From a virus: DNA of 21,030 nt. The position numbers were made by a program, and so were the translations under genes. The DNA lies in the IMG/VR virus record IMGVR_UViG_3300029319_000636, positions 1 to 21,030 of that record; one strand, 5' to 3'. Within the stretch, counting starts at the first letter, position 1. The number at the start of each line of letters is the position of its first letter. Under the pieces are notes generated by a model that was not told the DNA's origin, did not search any database, and was given only the letters and a program-made list of their open reading frames with translations. Below are positions 6,654 through 21,030 of the stretch, in pieces.

Positions 6654-8485
6654 TAATATTTTCCTAATGAATAAATGTATTGGAAGAAAACTTCTCTTGG
6701 TGGTGCTTCCACAGAAGCGGTGCTAGAAGTAGCGGTAATATTTGTATCATTTGACGAAACAAGTTTACCTGTAAATGGTGTAACGTTTGGAGTGGAGGTG
6801 ACTTGAGACACAGTGAAAACGTCGGTTAAATTTGTATTCAAAACCAATTCATCTCCCACATCCACATTATTGGACGCTTCGATTAATTCCAATGTTGCCA
6901 CCTTTGATCCCACTTGTTTGGTTGAAACAATTTTTGAGGACTGTTTAACTTTTGTTTTTTTATCCTGTCTTAAATCGTTGAAGGCACGCTCACCTGATTG
7001 ATTAATAATTTTGGTTTTATCGTGACTAAAATCGGATATATTAAACGTTGGAGTTGCACCAAAACTAATAGCGGATGGAGAAGTGACGTTTACTTTTTTC
7101 ACATTAGAAAAACGTTGAACTTGTCCTGATCCCGTATCTGATCCTGCTTGAAAATTAGTCGTCTGTCCTTGTGTCTGAACATCTCTTATGATTCCATAGC
7201 GTCTAAATGTTATTTGGTTTGTTCCAAAATCATCAGCGAGTCTATCGGTTCGGATTCCGACCCTAACCATCACTCTGGTGGCATTCAACAATCTTCTGGG
7301 ATCAGCAAAAAGGCCGTCTTGGTAGTCTAAATTAATTCTAATTCTGTTTTCAAGACTGTTTGTAACTGACAAAACTGAAGCATCCCTATATCCCGATCCC
7401 CCATTAACTAGACTAATGCCATCAATTACAAAACTACTACCACTTTTATAAGTCGTTAATTGAACAACGGCATTTTCTCCAGAACTCGATGATAACTCCA
7501 CAACTGGATTTTTTGTTGTTGTTGTTAGATCACTAACCGAAAGTCCAGACAAATCAATTGAAACTGACTGAATTTGTCCTATTTTTGCCTTTGCTTCTTT
7601 GTAAACATTTGCTTGTAAATAAAGATTTCTATTTGGGCTTGTTTTTCTTTGTTGATCCAAGGCAAGTTCGTACCCATTCTTAATCGTTGTTGTTGAAGCA
7701 CATGGGTTATCGGTGCAGGTGCCAAGTAGATTAAAAGTATATGATCTATTAAGTGCTTTTGCTATGGCAAAACAATTTGTGCATTTTATGTTTTCGGTGC
7801 AAAAATCAAGATCACCCTTAGAGAAGGTGTCTGATGTCACCGGATCAATGGCATCTTCCTTATAATAAAAACAACATGAACCAGACGCTCCTACATTAGT
7901 ACCACACCCACGACGAAAAGCCTCTTCTCTTTTAGAGACGGACGAGGGCACAATATCATACTCGTTTATGTCTGGAACAGGCATGTAGGTGTTTGAGAGA
8001 AAGTTTTTGTCTGCAAGATCGACTTTATACAAAAATCTCCAAGTATAACCATCAGCCAAAATTGTGTTTTGATTCTCTCTCGTGGGTTTAATTGTTGATG
8101 TGCTTAATCCAAATTGATCACGTCGATTTTTTTCGTTCGCTCCCATACAAACAAAAACTTCCTTGTCCTCTGTCATCGCATAGTAGTTTCTTTCCGGTCC
8201 ACTCGCCCCAGTTTCTGGAATACCATTTGAATCATATGGATAGTAAACGTTCCCCGACGACCAGTTAACTCGTCTTGCAATAATAGCAACCTCGCTGTCA
8301 CGAATTTTTTGGAGGAATGTAATATCCTGCCAAACAGAATTATCATCAGTGATTGTGTTTTTATTTTCTTCTGGGTTCGCACTTTCTCCACCCAAAAAGA
8401 AGAGCCAATTACTGTTATCTCCCCGAATAAGATCATACAGGGTTTTTGCTGTGTCTATTCCAATTGATCTCAAAGTTGTTGACAT
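6653..8485 (-). CDS. 8: Baseplate wedge protein gp8-like, with cysteine-rich insertion
   Basis: 610 residues, against 334 in T4 gp8. The N-terminal third carries the gp8 pattern: an isoleucine/arginine strand followed by W-x-x-G-x-VYYPYD, then YYAMTEDKEVFVCM, then ADGYTWRFLYKVD near residues 145-160. T4 and cyanophage gp8 have equivalent stretches at the same relative places. Residues about 193-262 form an insertion with eight of the protein's nine cysteines (GCG, SCC, then C-x5-C-x2-C and C-x4-C spacings). The C-terminal half is beta-rich. The ending FFQYIYSLGKY is consistent with the family. The product forms part of the baseplate wedge next to gp6, gp7 and gp53. Ribosome binding sequence AGGAA lies about 7 bases before ATG. 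The gp8 call is good; the function of the extra cysteine segment is unknown. Confidence 0.8.
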   Translation of the reverse strand: MSTTLRSIGIDTAKTLYDLIRGDNSNWLFFLGGESANPEENKNTITDDNSVWQDITFLQKIRDSEVAIIARRVNWSSGNVYYPYDSNGIPETGASGPERNYYAMTEDKEVFVCMGANEKNRRDQFGLSTSTIKPTRENQNTILADGYTWRFLYKVDLADKNFLSNTYMPVPDINEYDIVPSSVSKREEAFRRGCGTNVGASGSCCFYYKEDAIDPVTSDTFSKGDLDFCTENIKCTNCFAIAKALNRSYTFNLLGTCTDNPCASTTTIKNGYELALDQQRKTSPNRNLYLQANVYKEAKAKIGQIQSVSIDLSGLSVSDLTTTTKNPVVELSSSSGENAVVQLTTYKSGSSFVIDGISLVNGGSGYRDASVLSVTNSLENRIRINLDYQDGLFADPRRLLNATRVMVRVGIRTDRLADDFGTNQITFRRYGIIRDVQTQGQTTNFQAGSDTGSGQVQRFSNVKKVNVTSPSAISFGATPTFNISDFSHDKTKIINQSGERAFNDLRQDKKTKVKQSSKIVSTKQVGSKVATLELIEASNNVDVGDELVLNTNLTDVFTVSQVTSTPNVTPFTGKLVSSNDTNITATSSTASVEAPPREVFFQYIYSLGKY

Positions 8486-12009: not shown

Positions 12010-15000
12010 TTACTGCTCGTACTGGGGTTCAGATCCACCACTCGAATCTTGTGGTGATGAATCTCGTGTCAGAGTGACACTCATTATATGATTTTGTAAA
12101 CTCATTCTATGATCTATCTTAGAGACAAGATATTTTCCAGAAGTTCTTCTGAAGACTTCGTTTCCGGGAGCATCGGCTTTTCTTGGGTTGACAACGTTTA
12201 TGATTGTCCCCGGACGTAAAGTGAGATCCCCCGGCAAAGAAGCAACGACAGTCTGTGAGGTAAGTTGAACCATATGTGCATCACGGAGAAGTGTTGTTTT
12301 GTCTGGTGTCGACCAAAATGTTGCTTTAGTTCGATAAAACGGCAGAAGATCCTTAAATAGTTCACCTCGTTGTGGGCAATTGCAACTATAAGGCAAGTCT
12401 GGATCAGAGTAAACACATCCAAGATACTCGGGTCCAAGTTCAGTTTCGATGAAGTCACATTGACTGACCTTTAATTCCTCTTCGAGTTGATCTATTTCAG
12501 TTCGAGTTGGCTCTTTTAACTCTGGATCGAATGCAGACTCGATAGCAGTGATTGGCTCACCTGGCTCTGGTTCATTTCCCTCTAGTCCCAGATAATCCGG
12601 TCTTAATTCTTGCATGGGACAGTTAAGATATGGATCATACTCTTCATCTGTTTGACCCGGCTCTCTTTTTGGTGGATTCACTGGACCGGTATTTCCACAC
12701 TCGTAATTTCGACAAGGTGTGGACTCCTTGCCATAAACTATAAATTGTGCGGAGAAGTTTTTCTCAAGTAAGTGAACATAATCATTATCCTCTCCAACAC
12801 CTTGATTTTTTGGAGGAAGTATTGGTGGTGAAAATACACCATACTCTGCTTCACCCGAAAGATCATATTTCCATAAATTTTCCTCTGGATATTCTTCAAA
12901 CGGTGCGGGATCTCTCCACAACCTTCCATACGTTGATGTTTGAGCATCATTTGAATATCCGGTCGTGCTCGATAAATGTTTTGAATAAAATGTTTCCCCG
13001 TCACCAATTGTATCAAATGGACTTCCAAATACATCATTACCAAAAGTTAAGTAATATGGTGGAGTCTCTCCTCTTTTTAATCTGTCTAAGTGATTTTTAT
13101 TTATTATTGAATTTGGGGTAACTACATATGGATCTTGTGGTAAGTGATGATGCCAAGTTTTGGGAAAATAATCAAAATTGCTGATCGGCTGTGTTTCCTC
13201 TCTAAGTAATCCATACATCTGAGCATCTCTTTGGAAAGTTGACTCTTTATAAAATACATTAATGGGATCAATTTTTTCGTTCTCCACTGCCTCGGCTGGA
13301 TACAGATATGGGTTGTCGTGAGAAACATTGTTCTGCACAGTTCTCCACGCATCTGTTCGTGTAACAGCGACATCAAATCCATATGGATCCATGCCAATAA
13401 CACTGACATTATAATTTGCTGATTGTCTACCAAAAGGTCCTGCTGTTATCTGGACATTGTATGGTAAATAATATTCTGAACCTGCATCTCGAACAAAGCC
13501 ATATGGGAAGTCCTCCAAAGATTCCTCTCCAATCGGCTCTTCAAATTCAACACGAATATAGTGTTGATTCTCAGCAAGGAATCTTCTTGCAGATTGATAA
13601 TTTTCCTCAACAAACTCCGTAAATATTCCCTGTTCTTGCTTTAGTTCAAACCACTCAGCGATACTACCCAATCCATACACAGCACCGAAATTAAGTTTTT
13701 CTGGGTTGAATACTGGTCTGTTGCGTCCATCGTTGTAAAATACCTTTGGATCTTCGTCTGCGGTTTGTGGATTTACTTGACCATCCCCACGAAGATATGA
13801 TTCTCCAATAACATAACTGTTAATACCGAGTCCTTGAACACCCGGCATCACATGGAATCCGCTTAACTCTGCGGTATATTTTGCGGGTTCTCGTGGGAAA
13901 TTTTCGATAACGAATCCATTTTCATCTCGAAGTGGCTCAGGTGCTGGAGGATTTGTAAGTTGTGTTTCATACCATATGGGTGACGACTCAAATTCATCAA
14001 TGAATCCACCGTAACTTGCCCATCCAAAGCCCCCAGCAACATTTCCACCAGAAACTGATGCGTAATTAAAATTATCCCAATAATCACCATAATACTGACC
14101 ACCTCTGGAGGTGTAATCATAATTATATCTATTTTGCCAATAGCCGTCGTACCACCACCTATTTCTATAGAATGGTAAGTAACCACCCCAACCATTATAG
14201 TAATTTAACCAACTAGAACCTCGACCACCCCAATATGAATTTAGGACTCCAAGAGTTACTGTATAACTAACGGGGACATCTTTTATGTAACCGTTCCCTC
14301 TGTCCCAGACTCTTCCCTCATAATTGTACGAGTTACTTAGATAAGGGAATGATTTGATTCCGGGGGAACACGTTGCGGTTCCATTAAACAACTCTAATTT
14401 TTGATCATAGTATGGGTGTGGTGCCTCTGATTCTTCTTCACCAAAACCCAAGTAGTTTATAAAATAGTCATATGAGTCAGCAACGTCCTCTTTTAAAGAT
14501 TGTTTTTTTGCTAAAACTTCATATCTACTACCTCGTATTTTTTGACGAGTGATACTTTTTATATTTTTAAAGGTATTGGTTGAAACTTCTGGAATTTCTA
14601 AATATGGTTTTTTAGATTGAACATAAACTTTTCTATTAACAAATTCATCATAGTCTGTGAATAAAAGTTCTTTATAATCCAAAAATTCTGCTATGGTTTC
14701 CTGTAAAGCATCATATGATCTTTGGTATGCTCCAATAACACAATTGGGACTGTTTATATCAGAAACAAATCTTCTTTTCTTTATTCTAATAGGAAACCCA
14801 CCATCTGGGTTTGGTTCAATGATTTCTTCCTGTTGACCATCAGCACCTATAACTGGTTCATCATAGTAACAACCACCACACGGCCACAAAAAAGTCCAAC
14901 CATCCGCAAATTGATAATTCTTTCTATCAGCAGTTGCCAGTTCATACGCTCTGGTCGTTTCAAACGGAGGGACTCCTCCAGAATTTGTGCAAGTATTGAT

Positions 15001-16719
15001 CATACTTTGAATACCAGATAAATGTTGTTGCATCGTCCAAATTCTACCTTCAAGTAAATAACGAAGACCTTGCAATTCTCCAGACTCACGAAGTCTATAA
15101 AGAGTTTTTATCGTTTCTTGTAACGCAGGATCCGCTTCGACTCCCTCTTCCTCCTCAAATTGATAACTTGAAAAGAAGCCGTTTTCATTTGCTCTTGGAT
15201 CATCGGGATCATAGTTAACTGCATCGGTTAAAGTTCCGGCCGCTGCAACACTAAAATCATCATCGCCACTTGTGGTGTTTTTATCACCAGTGTATCCTGC
15301 ATCTGGATTGTAATTTTTCAAACAACAAACGGAACAGCGATAAGCGGACCACTTTTCTTTAAGTTCTCGCTTTTCCTCTAGTTCTTTTTTCTTTTGCTTT
15401 TGCTCTTTCTTAAACTGAATAAGTTTTTTCAGAATACTACCATCATATTCAACATGATCAAACATGGGCTGCCACAAAACTCTAGAACCAGTGTCTCGAT
15501 CTTTTTTGTAAACTTCACTATATTCTGTATGTTCATTTCTCATTCTAATTTGAGGATCATTGTATATTGAGTCCTCATAGTAACCGTGCATTGTGTCATA
15601 TCTTCTGACAGCAACACTGGGAGTGTATTCTTCAAATTCATTCGAGACAATTGGATACTGTTCGATTCGTTTAATTTTGTCAAACTCTTCAAAATACGAA
15701 TATTGAACCAGTTTACCCACATTTTGATGTGTGCTTTTTGATGAAATAAAATCTAAATAAGGGTCCTCATAATTTGGATCTACACGCTCATATTCAGAGA
15801 TGAGTGCTGCGTTGTGGAATAAATTTAGTGGTGAAAAATCAGACATCGGAACAAAGTTTAAAAAGGCATTTCTTAAATCGCCAGGAGTGTTTTGTTCAAT
15901 AATATAATTTCTTACATTTCTTTCCTCATAATCACTAATGATTTTGTTTACAGACTTGTAATGCCAACCATCTAAATCTTGCCAAAACAAATAATTTGCA
16001 GCGTTAATATTCGTTTCTGGGATTGATTTTTCAACCAAATAGTTCATTAACTTTATGAGGGGGAGTTCACCAACGGGTTTTCTATGGGGGTAAAGAGTTT
16101 CATTTTTCTTCAACCAAACATAGTTTGCCGTTGGCTCAATTTCCATGTCAAGTCTGTTTGTATTTTCTTCAGATGGATTGAAAAACTTTTCCGCAAGAAT
16201 ATTTACAAGTCCCTTTTCGTCAGACTCTTCACCATCTTCCGTTGACGTTGCAATTTTTAATACAACTTCATCTGTGTCAGATTCCTCACCACCGTTATCT
16301 TCATCATACTCAAAAACAGCAGAACCCGTGTAATTGGAAAAAACGTTTTCTGAACCACCAAATTCTACAACCCATGTCAATCTTTTCTCATTACCAAGCA
16401 TCGCTCCCTGAACCTCGTCGGTTGCTGGACGAAGAGAATGAACGAAGAAACGAAGTTGCTTTCTTGAATCTTCAACTTCCGGTGTTTCAATGTCGAGAAA
16501 CAAAAGTTCACCACCAACAAGAGGTAGAGCCTCACCAATGTTATTTGGTTCATGGAACAATAGTCTCCCGTTGACACCGGCTGTAAAAATATTCTCTTTT
16601 ATCTCAAGACGATCAAAAATCTGAGTGATATCACTTCTCATGATATCAATAATTTTTCCGGATCGTTTTACAATAGCAGCAGAACGTAAATTAAAACTCG
16701 CAACGGAAGCATCAACCAT
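12010..16719 (-). CDS. Giant gp27-like baseplate hub protein with aromatic and cysteine-rich insertion
   Basis: 1569 residues from the ATG at 16719, which has AAGGA 9 bases upstream and overlaps the gp53 end by 8 bases. An upstream in-frame ATG at 16803 lies deep in gp53 and is less likely. The N-terminal part (1 to about 440) has a hub pattern: LEIKENIFTAGVNGRLLFHE, LPLVGGELLFLDIETPE, KPVGELPLIKLMNYLVEK and YLFWQDLDGWHYKSVNKII. These recall gp27-type hubs of marine T4-like phages. A charged helical segment (about 430-455) leads into an insertion of about 1000 residues with all 15 cysteines (C462 to C1448). Residues 829-910 are Tyr/Trp/Gly/Asn-rich. The C-terminal part (about 1455-1569) has LTLRPGTIINVVNP and SGKYLVSKIDHR, a typical hub ending. 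No lysozyme domain is visible. Role inferred: central hub ring and spike platform. Confidence 0.75.
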   Translation of the reverse strand: MVDASVASFNLRSAAIVKRSGKIIDIMRSDITQIFDRLEIKENIFTAGVNGRLLFHEPNNIGEALPLVGGELLFLDIETPEVEDSRKQLRFFVHSLRPATDEVQGAMLGNEKRLTWVVEFGGSENVFSNYTGSAVFEYDEDNGGEESDTDEVVLKIATSTEDGEESDEKGLVNILAEKFFNPSEENTNRLDMEIEPTANYVWLKKNETLYPHRKPVGELPLIKLMNYLVEKSIPETNINAANYLFWQDLDGWHYKSVNKIISDYEERNVRNYIIEQNTPGDLRNAFLNFVPMSDFSPLNLFHNAALISEYERVDPNYEDPYLDFISSKSTHQNVGKLVQYSYFEEFDKIKRIEQYPIVSNEFEEYTPSVAVRRYDTMHGYYEDSIYNDPQIRMRNEHTEYSEVYKKDRDTGSRVLWQPMFDHVEYDGSILKKLIQFKKEQKQKKKELEEKRELKEKWSAYRCSVCCLKNYNPDAGYTGDKNTTSGDDDFSVAAAGTLTDAVNYDPDDPRANENGFFSSYQFEEEEGVEADPALQETIKTLYRLRESGELQGLRYLLEGRIWTMQQHLSGIQSMINTCTNSGGVPPFETTRAYELATADRKNYQFADGWTFLWPCGGCYYDEPVIGADGQQEEIIEPNPDGGFPIRIKKRRFVSDINSPNCVIGAYQRSYDALQETIAEFLDYKELLFTDYDEFVNRKVYVQSKKPYLEIPEVSTNTFKNIKSITRQKIRGSRYEVLAKKQSLKEDVADSYDYFINYLGFGEEESEAPHPYYDQKLELFNGTATCSPGIKSFPYLSNSYNYEGRVWDRGNGYIKDVPVSYTVTLGVLNSYWGGRGSSWLNYYNGWGGYLPFYRNRWWYDGYWQNRYNYDYTSRGGQYYGDYWDNFNYASVSGGNVAGGFGWASYGGFIDEFESSPIWYETQLTNPPAPEPLRDENGFVIENFPREPAKYTAELSGFHVMPGVQGLGINSYVIGESYLRGDGQVNPQTADEDPKVFYNDGRNRPVFNPEKLNFGAVYGLGSIAEWFELKQEQGIFTEFVEENYQSARRFLAENQHYIRVEFEEPIGEESLEDFPYGFVRDAGSEYYLPYNVQITAGPFGRQSANYNVSVIGMDPYGFDVAVTRTDAWRTVQNNVSHDNPYLYPAEAVENEKIDPINVFYKESTFQRDAQMYGLLREETQPISNFDYFPKTWHHHLPQDPYVVTPNSIINKNHLDRLKRGETPPYYLTFGNDVFGSPFDTIGDGETFYSKHLSSTTGYSNDAQTSTYGRLWRDPAPFEEYPEENLWKYDLSGEAEYGVFSPPILPPKNQGVGEDNDYVHLLEKNFSAQFIVYGKESTPCRNYECGNTGPVNPPKREPGQTDEEYDPYLNCPMQELRPDYLGLEGNEPEPGEPITAIESAFDPELKEPTRTEIDQLEEELKVSQCDFIETELGPEYLGCVYSDPDLPYSCNCPQRGELFKDLLPFYRTKATFWSTPDKTTLLRDAHMVQLTSQTVVASLPGDLTLRPGTIINVVNPRKADAPGNEVFRRTSGKYLVSKIDHRMSLQNHIMSVTLTRDSSPQDSSGGSEPQYEQ

Positions 16720-17653
16720 AACCACCAATTCCTTCAGATGATAAAGAGATAATAGAACTCTGAGTTCCATTCTGGGAAAGGAGTTTTTTAACCTCACCCA
16801 CAATTAAACTAGCAAATTCTTTTCTAATTAAACGTATTGTATTTGAAGAGTTTTCGTCCAACTCAGTTTGAATAGTTACAACAGAAATATTTGAGTCTTG
16901 AATAATACTATCTTGTCCGTCCAAATATTTTTGTAAAACAGTTGTCACACTGGTTTTCTTTTCATTCGTCGGGTATAAGTTAACATCAAGATTGTTAAAC
17001 GCAGAGGCCGTGGTAAGTTTCAATGACGGACTTAACACATAACCATCTTTGTGTCTAAAATATAAAACGGCATTTCTTAAGTTTTCAATTCTTTTTGGTG
17101 TTAACTGATTTCCAAGAGTAGTAAACTGACCGTTTCCAGTTTCCCGAAAAACATAATATGTGCTAAGACCGCTTGTTCCCGTCGTAATTGTTGATGAGGT
17201 AAAATTGTGATTTCTTACTTCGGTTTTATTTAATGAAAAATCATGATCATAAACAACACCATAATCTCCAGAAACTGTGCCCTCTGCGGAAACATCATAT
17301 TTTGCAATAATATCACCTTTTTGAAGTTTCATTTCATCATCAAAGAAAAAAGCATATCCGGAGTATTGATTGGAAAGAACTCGATCCTGATCCGCAGAAA
17401 ATCTCGGCCATTCAGTGTTTATATTTTCTATGTCGTTTGCCATTAGGACTAACCAATACAATGATGGATCCTCATAGTATTTGTTCGCAATACCCTCAGG
17501 TCTTTCTCCATCAGTTAATGTGTAATACTCAAAAAGTTCAGGTTTATCCAAAAGACGTTTCATTTTCACATTACGAAAAATATCTAACATTTCAACTGAA
17601 ACGTCATTAGGAAATTTGTAACTTAATTTTGGAAAGTTGTTAAAATATTCCAT
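16712..17653 (-). CDS. 53: Baseplate wedge protein gp53
   Basis: 313 residues, against about 196 in T4. The N-terminal half has the gp53 signature: FEYYTLTDGERPEGIANKYY at about residues 40-59, then EDPSLYWLVLMANDI. This is a LysM-like segment that clamps the wedge to its neighbours. The extra length is a beta-rich C-terminal region with a helical end (EFASLIVGEVKKLL). The start ATG overlaps the gp48 stop as TGATG. No clear ribosome binding sequence is seen, so coupling to gp48 is likely. The 3' end overlaps the hub start by 8 bases. In T4, gp53 connects gp6 and gp25 and closes adjacent wedges into the dome. Confidence 0.9.
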   Translation of the reverse strand: MEYFNNFPKLSYKFPNDVSVEMLDIFRNVKMKRLLDKPELFEYYTLTDGERPEGIANKYYEDPSLYWLVLMANDIENINTEWPRFSADQDRVLSNQYSGYAFFFDDEMKLQKGDIIAKYDVSAEGTVSGDYGVVYDHDFSLNKTEVRNHNFTSSTITTGTSGLSTYYVFRETGNGQFTTLGNQLTPKRIENLRNAVLYFRHKDGYVLSPSLKLTTASAFNNLDVNLYPTNEKKTSVTTVLQKYLDGQDSIIQDSNISVVTIQTELDENSSNTIRLIRKEFASLIVGEVKKLLSQNGTQSSIISLSSEGIGGYG

Positions 17654-18602: not shown

Positions 18603-19034
18603 ATGGCATATAAAACAGTTTACAAACCGTTAAATGAATCTAAGTATGTAGGTGACTCCACCAACATTATATGTAGGTCGTTATGGGAACGTCGTGTGTG
18701 TAAATACCTTGACACAAACGAAAATGTGATAAATTGGGGGAGTGAAGAAATAACCATACCGTACATTTCTCCTCTAGACAATCGAAGGCATCGTTACTTT
18801 CCGGACTTCATCGTTAGGATAAAAGAAAATAGTGGTGACGTAAAGACAAAAGTTATTGAGGTTAAACCATTCAAACAAACAAAAAAACCAGAGCGAGGTA
18901 AAAAAAGAAAAGCCACATATGCAAACGAATGTGCTACATATGTTGTAAACCAAGCAAAATGGAAAGCAGCGGAGAATTTTTGCTCTAAAAAGGGTTGGGA
19001 ATTTCTGGTTTTAACTGAGAAGGAAATATTTTAA
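18603..19034 (+). CDS. 4: Head completion protein gp4 (PD-(D/E)xK nuclease-like fold)
   Basis: 143 residues, near the 150 of T4 gp4. Seen: SLWERRVCKYLD with E29, WGSEEITIPYISPLDNR, HRYFPDF with D68, and VIEVKP with E86 and K88. This E...D...E-x-K arrangement is the core of the TnsA-like PD-(D/E)xK nuclease fold, which the gp4 family shares. T4 gp4 is needed to complete packaged heads before tails join. The start is taken at ATG 18603, because family members begin a few residues before a K-Y-x-G-x-x-T-N-II stretch. A TTG at 18579 would add eight odd residues. No ribosome binding sequence precedes ATG 18603. A CTAAATA motif ends 4 bases before it. Confidence 0.9.
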   Translation: MAYKTVYKPLNESKYVGDSTNIICRSLWERRVCKYLDTNENVINWGSEEITIPYISPLDNRRHRYFPDFIVRIKENSGDVKTKVIEVKPFKQTKKPERGKKRKATYANECATYVVNQAKWKAAENFCSKKGWEFLVLTEKEIF

Positions 19035-19627
19035 TGGCAAAAGCAAGACACCCATCAAACCCTGATGCACTAAGATGGAAAGTCATTTCCAGAGGACTTC
19101 AACGAGCAAATCGGTTCGAGGTCTTTATCAACGTCGAGGGAATTGGTACTTTAAGTATGCCCGCACAAACGGTATCTCTTCCCGGCAGAAGTTTCCTTGG
19201 AATGCCAGACGACATCGTTGCTCAGGGTTCAAACCCACGAATAGTTCCGATGAGAAGAGCGTATGGTGGAGAAGCAACCATCCTGCTTGGTTTTTTTATA
19301 GATCAGAATTGGTTCACCAGAGCGTTTTTTGAAAAATGGTCAGACAGATTTTACCCATTAACTCAAGATGTTTCTGATGCCTACCTTGTTCGCAGTGGCA
19401 GTTATGCTAATCTTGCAGAAGGCTCAACCATGAGGATTTCTTTTTTGGATTTAGAGGACAATATTCGATGGCAAATGCGAGTCATTGAACCTTATGTTTC
19501 AACCATCATTCAAGAAACATATTCACAAGAACAAATGAATCAACTTGCTATGCTCAATGTAGCGATTGGTTTTAAAGAATACATACCCGAACTTGGATCT
19601 CTTGGGAGCAATCCAGCAAGTTATTGA
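19034..19627 (+). CDS. Tail-tube-fold protein, baseplate tube initiator gp54-like
   Basis: 197 residues. The sequence has the tail-tube style pattern: RANRFEVFINVEG near residues 24-36, MPAQTVSLPGRSF, an RAYGGEATILLGFFIDQNW beta stretch, then ISFLDLEDNIRWQMRVIEPYVSTI. The FEV-x-I, SLPGR-type and D...W-x-M-x-V-x-x-x-Y-P elements are shared by the gp19 tube and gp54 initiator proteins. T4 gp54 is 320 residues and gp19 is 163, so length does not decide. The position before gp26 and away from a sheath gene favours an initiator role, but it could be a second tube protein. Start overlaps the gp4 stop (TAATG) behind AAGGAA. Confidence 0.8.
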   Translation: MAKARHPSNPDALRWKVISRGLQRANRFEVFINVEGIGTLSMPAQTVSLPGRSFLGMPDDIVAQGSNPRIVPMRRAYGGEATILLGFFIDQNWFTRAFFEKWSDRFYPLTQDVSDAYLVRSGSYANLAEGSTMRISFLDLEDNIRWQMRVIEPYVSTIIQETYSQEQMNQLAMLNVAIGFKEYIPELGSLGSNPASY

Positions 19628-19642
19628 TAATAGGAGAAGATA

Positions 19643-20332
19643 ATGAGCATACTTGAAGCGATACAAACAACTTTACCAAAATATGAGGTGGTTATTCCGT
19701 CAACGGGATCAAAAACCACATTTAGACCGTTTTTGATGAAAGAACAAAGAGTTTTGATGATGGCAGATCCGGAAAAATCATCCGAAATGCTTTTAGCAAT
19801 TGCCGCAGTTGTTGAAAACTGTGTGGATAATGTCAATGATGCAAAAAAGATCCCAATGCACGATTTAGAGTATCTTTTTTGTCAAATTCGATCAAAATCT
19901 GTTTCTGAGATGGTTGAACCGATTTTTACTTGTCCAGAAACGGGTGAAAATATTAAAATTGGAATTGATTTAACAAAAATTGACATTTCGAGAGGCAATC
20001 CGGCCTCTGAAATTAAAATTAACGATGAAATTACCTTTCACATGCGTTCTCCAATGGTTCGGGATTATGTCGAAGAAAACAACACTGATTTTGATAGCAT
20101 TCTTTCACATTGCATTGAAAAAATTGTTGTAAAAGATGAAGTATATGAAGGTGTTTCTTTAACTGCAACCGAAAAAGAAACCATACTGGAAAATCTCACA
20201 AAGGATCAATACTATAAAGTTCAAGATTATCTTCTTGAGCAACCAAAAATTACAATAGATGCGCCATACAGAACATCGGACGGCACGGAAAGATCAATTA
20301 AACTGGAGGGAATGAAGGATTTTTTCGGCTAA
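19643..20332 (+). CDS. 26: Baseplate hub subunit gp26, with a possible -1 frameshift at its end
   Basis: 229 residues, against 208 in T4 gp26. Family marks: LPKYEVVIPSTG, FRPFLMKEQRVLMMA at about residues 29-43, MHDLEYLFCQIRSKSVSE at about 73-90, and FTCPETGENIKI. They match the T4-type gp26 hub family. AGGAGAAGA precedes the ATG. The last codons are GAT TTT TTC GGC TAA, so a T TTT TTC slippery heptamer ends 3 bases before the stop codon and is correctly phased. Slippage to the -1 frame would replace the last residue with 67 others, giving 295 residues including the gp51-like part. In T4, gp26 takes part in building the hub with gp51 and gp28. The placement directly before a tape-measure-type protein parallels tail assembly chaperones. 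Confidence 0.93.
   Translation: MSILEAIQTTLPKYEVVIPSTGSKTTFRPFLMKEQRVLMMADPEKSSEMLLAIAAVVENCVDNVNDAKKIPMHDLEYLFCQIRSKSVSEMVEPIFTCPETGENIKIGIDLTKIDISRGNPASEIKINDEITFHMRSPMVRDYVEENNTDFDSILSHCIEKIVVKDEVYEGVSLTATEKETILENLTKDQYYKVQDYLLEQPKITIDAPYRTSDGTERSIKLEGMKDFFG
20320..20326 (+). other. Candidate -1 programmed frameshift site T TTT TTC
   Basis: In the gp26 frame the bases read GA-T TTT TTC GGC TAA, which fits the X XXY YYZ heptamer with X = T, Y = T, Z = C. Both tRNAs could re-pair after a one-base backward slip. The gp26 stop is 3 bases downstream. A possible hairpin follows after two bases: CTAAGTC at 20329-20335 can pair with GAC at 20344-20346 and TTAG at 20350-20353, leaving a 3-base bulge. 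The spacer is shorter than usual for stimulatory structures, so the hairpin is weak support. Confidence 0.55.
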
Positions 20333-20529
20333 GTCTTTGCCATGACTCGTTAGAAACAATATTCAAAGTTAATTTTGATTTGTTCATACACTTTAAGATG
20401 AGTTTACTTGAAACCGACATGATGATTCCGTGGGAAAGAGACATTTATGTTGAATTAGTAAAACAACATATCGAAGAGGAAAACAAAAAGTTACGGGAAA
20501 GACAAAATGCAAGACAAACCCTTAGATAA
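20320..20529 (+). CDS. gp51-like frame, probably expressed by -1 frameshifting from gp26
   Basis: Open -1 frame entered at the gp26 slippery site and ending at TAA 20527-20529. It encodes 67 residues beyond the slip: RLSLCHDSLETIFKVNFDLF, then HFKMSLLETDMMIPWERDIY, then an EEEN-rich helix. From memory, short gp51-type baseplate assembly proteins of marine T4-like phages have a comparable S-L-x-E-x-x-x-MIP-W/F-ERDIY core. An independent start would be ATG at 20398 (43 residues) or TTG at 20380. Neither has a ribosome binding sequence, and both cut off the well-behaved residues upstream. In the -1 frame a TAA lies only six codons before the slip site. The end overlaps the next gene by 23 bases. 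Coordinates given here are of the open frame, not of a proven separate start. Confidence 0.7.
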   Translation, partial: FFRLSLCHDSLETIFKVNFDLFIHFKMSLLETDMMIPWERDIYVELVKQHIEEENKKLRERQNARQTLR

Positions 20530-21030
20530 AATTATAGACTCTCTTGGTGGAAAGAAAAAGGGGAGAAAGCGGAAGAAAGAGACTACACCAACTCCAATGA
20601 GTGAGGTTGAATTTTTCAATGCAATCCAGACCACCAGTAAGAGTGGGGGGTTTGATCAAGAAAAGTTGGAGTCTGCCACCGAAGCAAAAGAAGTTTCATA
20701 TGAAAAAGATTTTAGTGAATTAAAAGATATGGTGCAAGAAGTGTTGAGTAAGAAAACACCAAAAGAGACTAAATTCAAAAAAATTGACCCACGAGATATC
20801 AAAAAACTTGACAAATATACTTTTAAAACGGCAGTAATTAAAACTGAAAAGGGTGTAACACAACTCCCCGCATTACGCACAGGTGGTGTTGTTACAAGTC
20901 CAACACAAGCATTGATTGGTGAAAATGGACCAGAGGCCGTGGTTCCATTAGAAAAATTACAATCTCTTTACGATCAAATGCCCGGTATAAGCAGAGAAGG
21001 TTTTGGAACGTTGGTAAGAAACTTTATGCC
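20507..21030 (+). CDS. Probable tape-measure-type tail protein (partial, C-terminus beyond right edge)
   Basis: At least 174 residues from ATG 20507, reaching the window edge. GGGAAAG lies 6 bases before the start, inside the end of the gp51-like frame. Seen: a lysine/arginine-rich N-terminus (GGKKKGRKRKK at about 14-24), a charged helical part, then TGGVVTSPTQALIGENGPEA and VVPLEKL at about residues 125-152. The GGVV...ALIGE-x-GPEAV(V/I)PL motif is widespread in phage tape-measure proteins. There it more often stands in the later part of the protein, so its early position is odd. T4's own tape measure is gp29, and no gp29 similarity is visible in this fragment. Context (after gp26 and gp51) supports a hub or tape-measure role. 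Total length is unknown. Confidence 0.7.
   Translation, partial: MQDKPLDKIIDSLGGKKKGRKRKKETTPTPMSEVEFFNAIQTTSKSGGFDQEKLESATEAKEVSYEKDFSELKDMVQEVLSKKTPKETKFKKIDPRDIKKLDKYTFKTAVIKTEKGVTQLPALRTGGVVTSPTQALIGENGPEAVVPLEKLQSLYDQMPGISREGFGTLVRNFM

Follow-up and report, generated by a model that had tools for sequence, protein, structure and literature searches.

The overlap of the gp26 gene with a gp51-like sequence in another frame raises the question of whether the locus holds two genes or one frameshifted gene, and what its products do. The locus, in which gp26 and gp51 are usually annotated as distinct baseplate components, comes from a marine T4-like virus and lies in a window of 21,030 bases, the whole stretch of DNA analysed and the whole of its IMG/VR record (Table 1). 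It is assigned here, with high confidence, as a tail assembly chaperone (TAC) pair in which gp26 is the short form, TAC-N, and gp26 joined to gp51 is the long form, TAC-NC, made by predicted -1 ribosomal frameshifting. A frameshifting TAC pair is marked by a slippery sequence, by an overlapping protein-coding -1 frame without a conserved start of its own, and by a position between the tube-protein and tape-measure genes. Most ribosomes would end at the gp26 stop to give TAC-N, and in a minority the Phe-tRNA on UUU UUC would shift by -1 onto UUU UUU, bypassing that stop. The slipped ribosomes would then read 67 further codons, giving a predicted TAC-NC of 295 aa that consists of gp26 residues 1-228 and the 67-aa extension. 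We infer that slippage takes place in vivo at a rate that makes the long form the minor product, and that both products act as chaperones.

Table 1. Features of the gp26/gp51 locus, with positions numbered from the first base of the window.
Feature	Position	Strand	Evidence or remark
Tail-tube-fold protein (phrog_45), immediately 5' of gp26	19034..19627	+	E 2.8e-6
gp26, predicted short chaperone form TAC-N (229 aa)	19643..20332	+	PF12322 E 4e-49; phrog_150 E 2e-50
TAA closing the -1 frame upstream	20299..20301	+	Six codons before TTT TTT
GGAGGG, Shine-Dalgarno-like, 9 nt 5' of heptamer	20305..20310	+	Over-represented versus synonymous resampling
Slippery heptamer T TTT TTC, gp26 phase (X XXY YYZ)	20320..20326	+	236/243 homologous loci
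-1 extension (gp51 core, predicted TAC-C), 67 aa and stop	20326..20529	+	phrog_634 E 2e-19
gp26 0-frame stop TAA	20330..20332	+	One sense codon (GGC) between heptamer and stop
Tape-measure-like gene start (GENGPEAVVPL), overlapping the end of the -1 frame and running off the window	20507..21028	+	Tape-measure phrogs, E ~2e-6

The gp26 of the window matches PF12322, the T4_baseplate family, at 167.6 bits against a curated cut-off of 24.5, and its gene ends with GGA ATG AAG GAT TTT TTC GGC TAA, in which T TTT TTC provides the slippery sequence. In the -1 frame no stop occurs from 20302 until a TAA at 20527-20529, and the product of this frame, which reads RLSLCHDSLETIFKVNFDLFIHFKMSLLETDMMIPWERDIYVELVKQHIEEENKKLRERQNARQTLR, matches profile positions 58-120 of the 121 in phrog_634 (gp51, 'baseplate hub assembly catalyst'). 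The stop that closes this frame upstream lies close to the slip site, and therefore the extension cannot start far upstream. The first ATG of the frame is at 20398, a TTG is present at 20380, and no ribosome binding site is evident before that ATG in the preceding ATTTGTTCATACACTTTAAG. The sequence-only reading of this DNA had described an in-phase T TTT TTC 3 bases before the gp26 stop, an in-frame stop six codons 5' of the slip site, 67 open codons beyond it, and neither an ATG before 20398 nor a ribosome binding sequence there, and is accurate to the base on all of them. Among isolates, Pelagibacter phage Mosig, a member of Kyanoviridae, gives the nearest match to the -1 product, and the product is found in 527 phage records of the phages collection. 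Among the records inspected, some show it as a gene of its own, named 'baseplate hub assembly catalyst' or hypothetical, and others, such as DSL-LC03 and Ah1, lack an annotation for it; the annotated starts vary between records.

Homologues of gp26 were taken from IMG/VR and phage records, yielding 243 loci with a gp26-type ORF. T TTT TTN is present in phase close to the gp26 stop in 236 of these loci; it is missing from seven, namely T4, close relatives and a Marfavirus, all of the T4/Tevenvirinae type with a separate gene 51. Clustering at 60% identity gave 40 frameshift-type representatives drawn from the 236 heptamer-bearing loci, and the heptamer is kept in all 40, mostly 0-3, usually 0-2, and rarely 8-9 codons before the gp26 stop. 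Its last base is C, T, A or G among these representatives, with T TTT TTG occurring in one relative (L049). T TTT TTA and T TTT TTG encode Phe-Leu, not Phe-Phe, and conservation therefore applies to the nucleotides and not to the encoded residues. Under synonymous codon choice, NNT TTT would occur in all 40 with a probability of ~1e-21 if the loci are treated as independent, a value that overstates significance because the loci share ancestry and were selected for the heptamer. The T TTT TT context is absent from all 33 other Phe-Phe pairs of gp26 bodies. Lineages with the heptamer include Kyanoviridae, Straboviridae other than the T4 group (Ah1, phi-ST2), and phages of Rhizobium, Sinorhizobium, Agrobacterium and Stenotrophomonas. 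These comparisons indicate that the in-phase heptamer is not due to chance. The sequence-only reading had named as support a conserved slippery heptamer in phase, a fixed -1 relation between the gp26 and gp51 frames, and a gp51 without a conserved start; the first is found in the 236 loci, the second is the same in all of them, and the third is borne out by the start codons considered below.

An AlphaFold2 model of the window gp26 (pLDDT 91.6) has as its top PDB fold match the HK97 gp13 tail assembly chaperone, 2OB9, ranked first of 350,542 chains, although the match is weak and distant (E 0.17, prob 0.89, TM 0.43 by target length, 88 aligned columns of 229 residues). 3FGX, at rank 10, has the second highest probability among the matches listed (0.60) and exhibits the TAC fold (PMC9603447). 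Pfam at a lenient E-value matched neither gp26 nor the extension to a TAC family, and no credible relatives were found in PDB sequence searches. The locus is situated between tube-protein and tape-measure genes, the tape-measure side being assigned from a short motif in the downstream gene, the complete form of which encodes 566 aa in a 94% relative (L002). The order of tube-fold protein, gp26, -1 frame and GENGPEAVVPL-bearing protein had been read from the sequence beforehand, and matches to phrog_45 on the 5' side and, through the short motif, to tape-measure phrogs on the 3' side agree with it. Isolates show the same neighbours around gp26/gp51. Elsewhere in the window, on the minus strand, positions 3-1535 hold an ORF with collagen-like GPTGPTGPT repeats, many cysteines and weak tail-fibre matches, and positions 12010-16803 hold a 1597-aa ORF, the best phage tail-protein match of which, phrog_350, lies at its C-terminal end (residues 1502-1587).

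If the pair works as lambda G/GT does, TAC-N and TAC-NC would coat the tape measure protein, the C-terminal extension would recruit the tube protein, and both would then leave. It is improbable that the frameshift is real but that its products serve baseplate hub assembly and not the tape measure. T4 genetics places gp26 and gp51 in that process, where both are classed as hub assembly chaperones and gp51, although required, is absent from the virion (PMC3004832). However, the listed hub components of T4 include the tape measure gp29, and a chaperone of the tape measure would therefore be recorded as a factor in hub assembly; the HK97 TAC fold match, weak as it is, and the gene order favour a chaperone.

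The evolution of the -1 frame was analysed over codons 2-18 after the slip, the segment preceding any shared start codon. Across 49 independent pairs, substitutions at -1-frame codon positions 1, 2 and 3 number 46, 37 and 148, and codon changes comprise 121 synonymous versus 69 nonsynonymous, a pattern indicating that the frame evolves as protein from the slip onward. No ATG precedes codon 17 after the slip in 29 of 53 representatives, and 19 of the 53 possess no ATG, GTG or TTG in that interval. An ATG at codon 2 or 3 is present in ~16 of the 53, at a position that is not conserved, and the RefSeq gp51 of P-SSM2 starts at such an early ATG. No start codon for the extension is shared among the divergent representatives, and thus the -1 frame is overlapping, protein-coding and without a conserved start of its own. 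One divergent locus without a recognisable extension (L252) was excluded from the start-codon, substitution and SD-motif counts and from the tree, and was included in the 40 representatives for the heptamer, codon-choice and RNA-folding analyses.

These data bear on whether gp51 is a small gene in its own right, with translation starting at the ATG at 20398 or the TTG at 20380 by re-initiation or coupling after gp26. Inspected phage records in which gp26 and gp51 are distinct entries or the stretch has no annotation, and relatives that carry an ATG 2-3 codons after the slip, are in keeping with such a gene. It is nevertheless very unlikely, as the window lacks both an earlier ATG and a ribosome binding site at 20398, and protein-level selection acts on the conserved segment before that ATG, LSLCHDSLETIFKVNF (in relatives LSHDSLxNYYxxNF), while starts are not conserved. 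A separate gene also leaves the near-invariant heptamer unexplained.

Frameshifting at the heptamer may be assisted by flanking elements. Most representatives carry GGAGGG or a comparable purine stretch 8-9 nt 5' of the heptamer. GGAGG is present upstream of the heptamer in 15 of 53 representatives versus 2.4+-1.5 expected from synonymous resampling, and Shine-Dalgarno (SD)-like 5-mers in 38 of 53 versus 23.2+-3.1; at control positions of the gp26 body, such 5-mers occur at 2.8%. This enrichment suggests that the SD-like GGAGGG of the window is a likely frameshift stimulator that probably aids the slip. A fixed spacing of 8-9 nt points to the ribosome, and not to RNA polymerase slipping on the T run and producing heterogeneous transcripts as the source of the long form. 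Six to seven consecutive T are present, as polymerase slippage would call for, but T runs of six are short for that process, and the last base varies between C, T, A and G while the phase and tandem-codon structure are kept, making this source of the long form highly improbable. That an assembly or sequencing indel in the T homopolymer has split one true ORF is refuted by the recurrence of the same -1 relation in 236 independent loci, including isolate genomes, and the chance of it is negligible.

RNA folding in 80-nt windows is strongest at +4 nt after the heptamer, with a mean z of -1.4+-0.27 over the 40 representatives; z is below -2 in 15 of the 40 at this position and near 0 by +80. P-SSM2 (L039) possesses a strong stem-loop at 2507-2537, directly 3' of the slip site, with z from -2.35 to -4.0 according to which stretch is folded. 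RNA folding of the window itself found no stable downstream stem (z +0.33) and that of its nearest relatives no significant one, and a stem is therefore not claimed for the window phage. Downstream structure was thus rejected as a universal stimulator, being enriched on average but absent here; a stem probably aids the slip in some relatives and apparently not in the window phage. It may be that neither the SD-like element nor the folding peak has been described before, and the former is put forward as a candidate stimulator.

The gp26 proteins of T4 and the window are homologous. T4 gp51 matches PF12322 over residues 1-201 (E 3.9e-52), its C-terminal part matches phrog_634 (E 1.2e-23), its end matches the profile of the -1 product, and it aligns with T4 gp26 (E 2e-6). 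A model of T4-type gp51 comprises a gp26-like N-terminal part and four C-terminal helices. T4 gp51 is composed of a gp26-like domain and a -1 product domain, and therefore corresponds, in a single frame, to the frameshift product. In T4 and close kin, gene 51 is separate, divergent and on the opposite strand to the neighbouring gene 26, whereas the window has one locus with a -1 overlap; the T4 type lacks the heptamer, with GAG TTC TTT at the site where the window has T TTT TTC. On an unrooted phylogenetic tree, T4-type gp26 and gp51 group together, apart from all frameshifting loci (98/90; the gp51 branch is long), as expected from one duplication. Positions 6803-8229 of T4 (L036) hold genes 26 and 51 as divergently transcribed paralogues, consistent with a duplicated frameshifting locus. 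T4 gp28 was considered as a third paralogue, but has a weak PHROG match (E 9e-4) without support in direct comparison. A comparison of profiles A2 and A3 was also set aside, since rows common to both alignments mean that it is not independent evidence. The chances are even that an ancient three-part signal (SD-like element, T TTT TTN, and a downstream stem in many lineages) sets the ratio of TAC-N to TAC-NC in the T4 superfamily, and was lost in Tevenvirinae upon duplication into divergent genes 26 and 51, ratio control moving from the ribosome to gene expression.

The assignment of the locus as a frameshifting TAC pair agrees with the sequence-only reading, which had suggested that gp26/gp51 is the counterpart of a chaperone pair and is supported by the heptamer, the -1 relation, the domain makeup of T4 gp51 and the weak 2OB9 match, and also agrees with the listing of T4 gp26 and gp51 as hub assembly chaperones. 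The gp51 annotated as 'baseplate hub assembly catalyst' in hundreds of marine T4-like records is most likely a frameshifted chaperone tail, and the old T4 question of the role of gp26 and gp51 in hub assembly would gain a concrete answer that matches the general scheme of long-tailed phages. The 2022 study by Vladimirov, Gautam and Davidson reportedly found that some T4-like phages use frameshifting whereas T4 has separate genes. As cited in later papers, that study identified TACs of T4-like phages (Virology 2022;566:9-15, doi 10.1016/j.virol.2021.11.003). It is cited for slippery poly-T sequences within TAC-N genes of these phages (PMC12846349) and for T4-like phages with a short gene and a separate fused long gene (PMC10885494). 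The novelty that the earlier reading implied for gp26/gp51 as a chaperone pair is thus lost to cited precedent: according to these citations, the frameshifted chaperone idea for T4-like phages was published in 2022, and the window provides one more frameshifting member.

Other known systems share parts of this arrangement. P2 slips on T TTT TTG, and the heptamer of lambda is G GGA AAG, other than the T TTT TTC of the window. Lambda G/GT and P2 E/E' likewise consist of a short chaperone and a -1 long form between the tube and tape-measure genes (Levin 1993, Christie 2002 and Xu 2004, as cited in PMC12859696). Profile searches found no sequence similarity of the window proteins to either pair, and the gp26 domain is larger than in both. 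HK97 gp13 is the best PDB fold match of the window gp26, but a distant one. Vandenendeviridae and Andersonviridae are other phage families than that of the window, and the likeness to them is drawn from the slip-site arrangement: their TAC locus has an invariant GTTTTT and, as in the window, a poly-T slip at the 3' end of TAC-N, followed by a -1 extension that is usually annotated as a separate hypothetical gene (PMC12846349).
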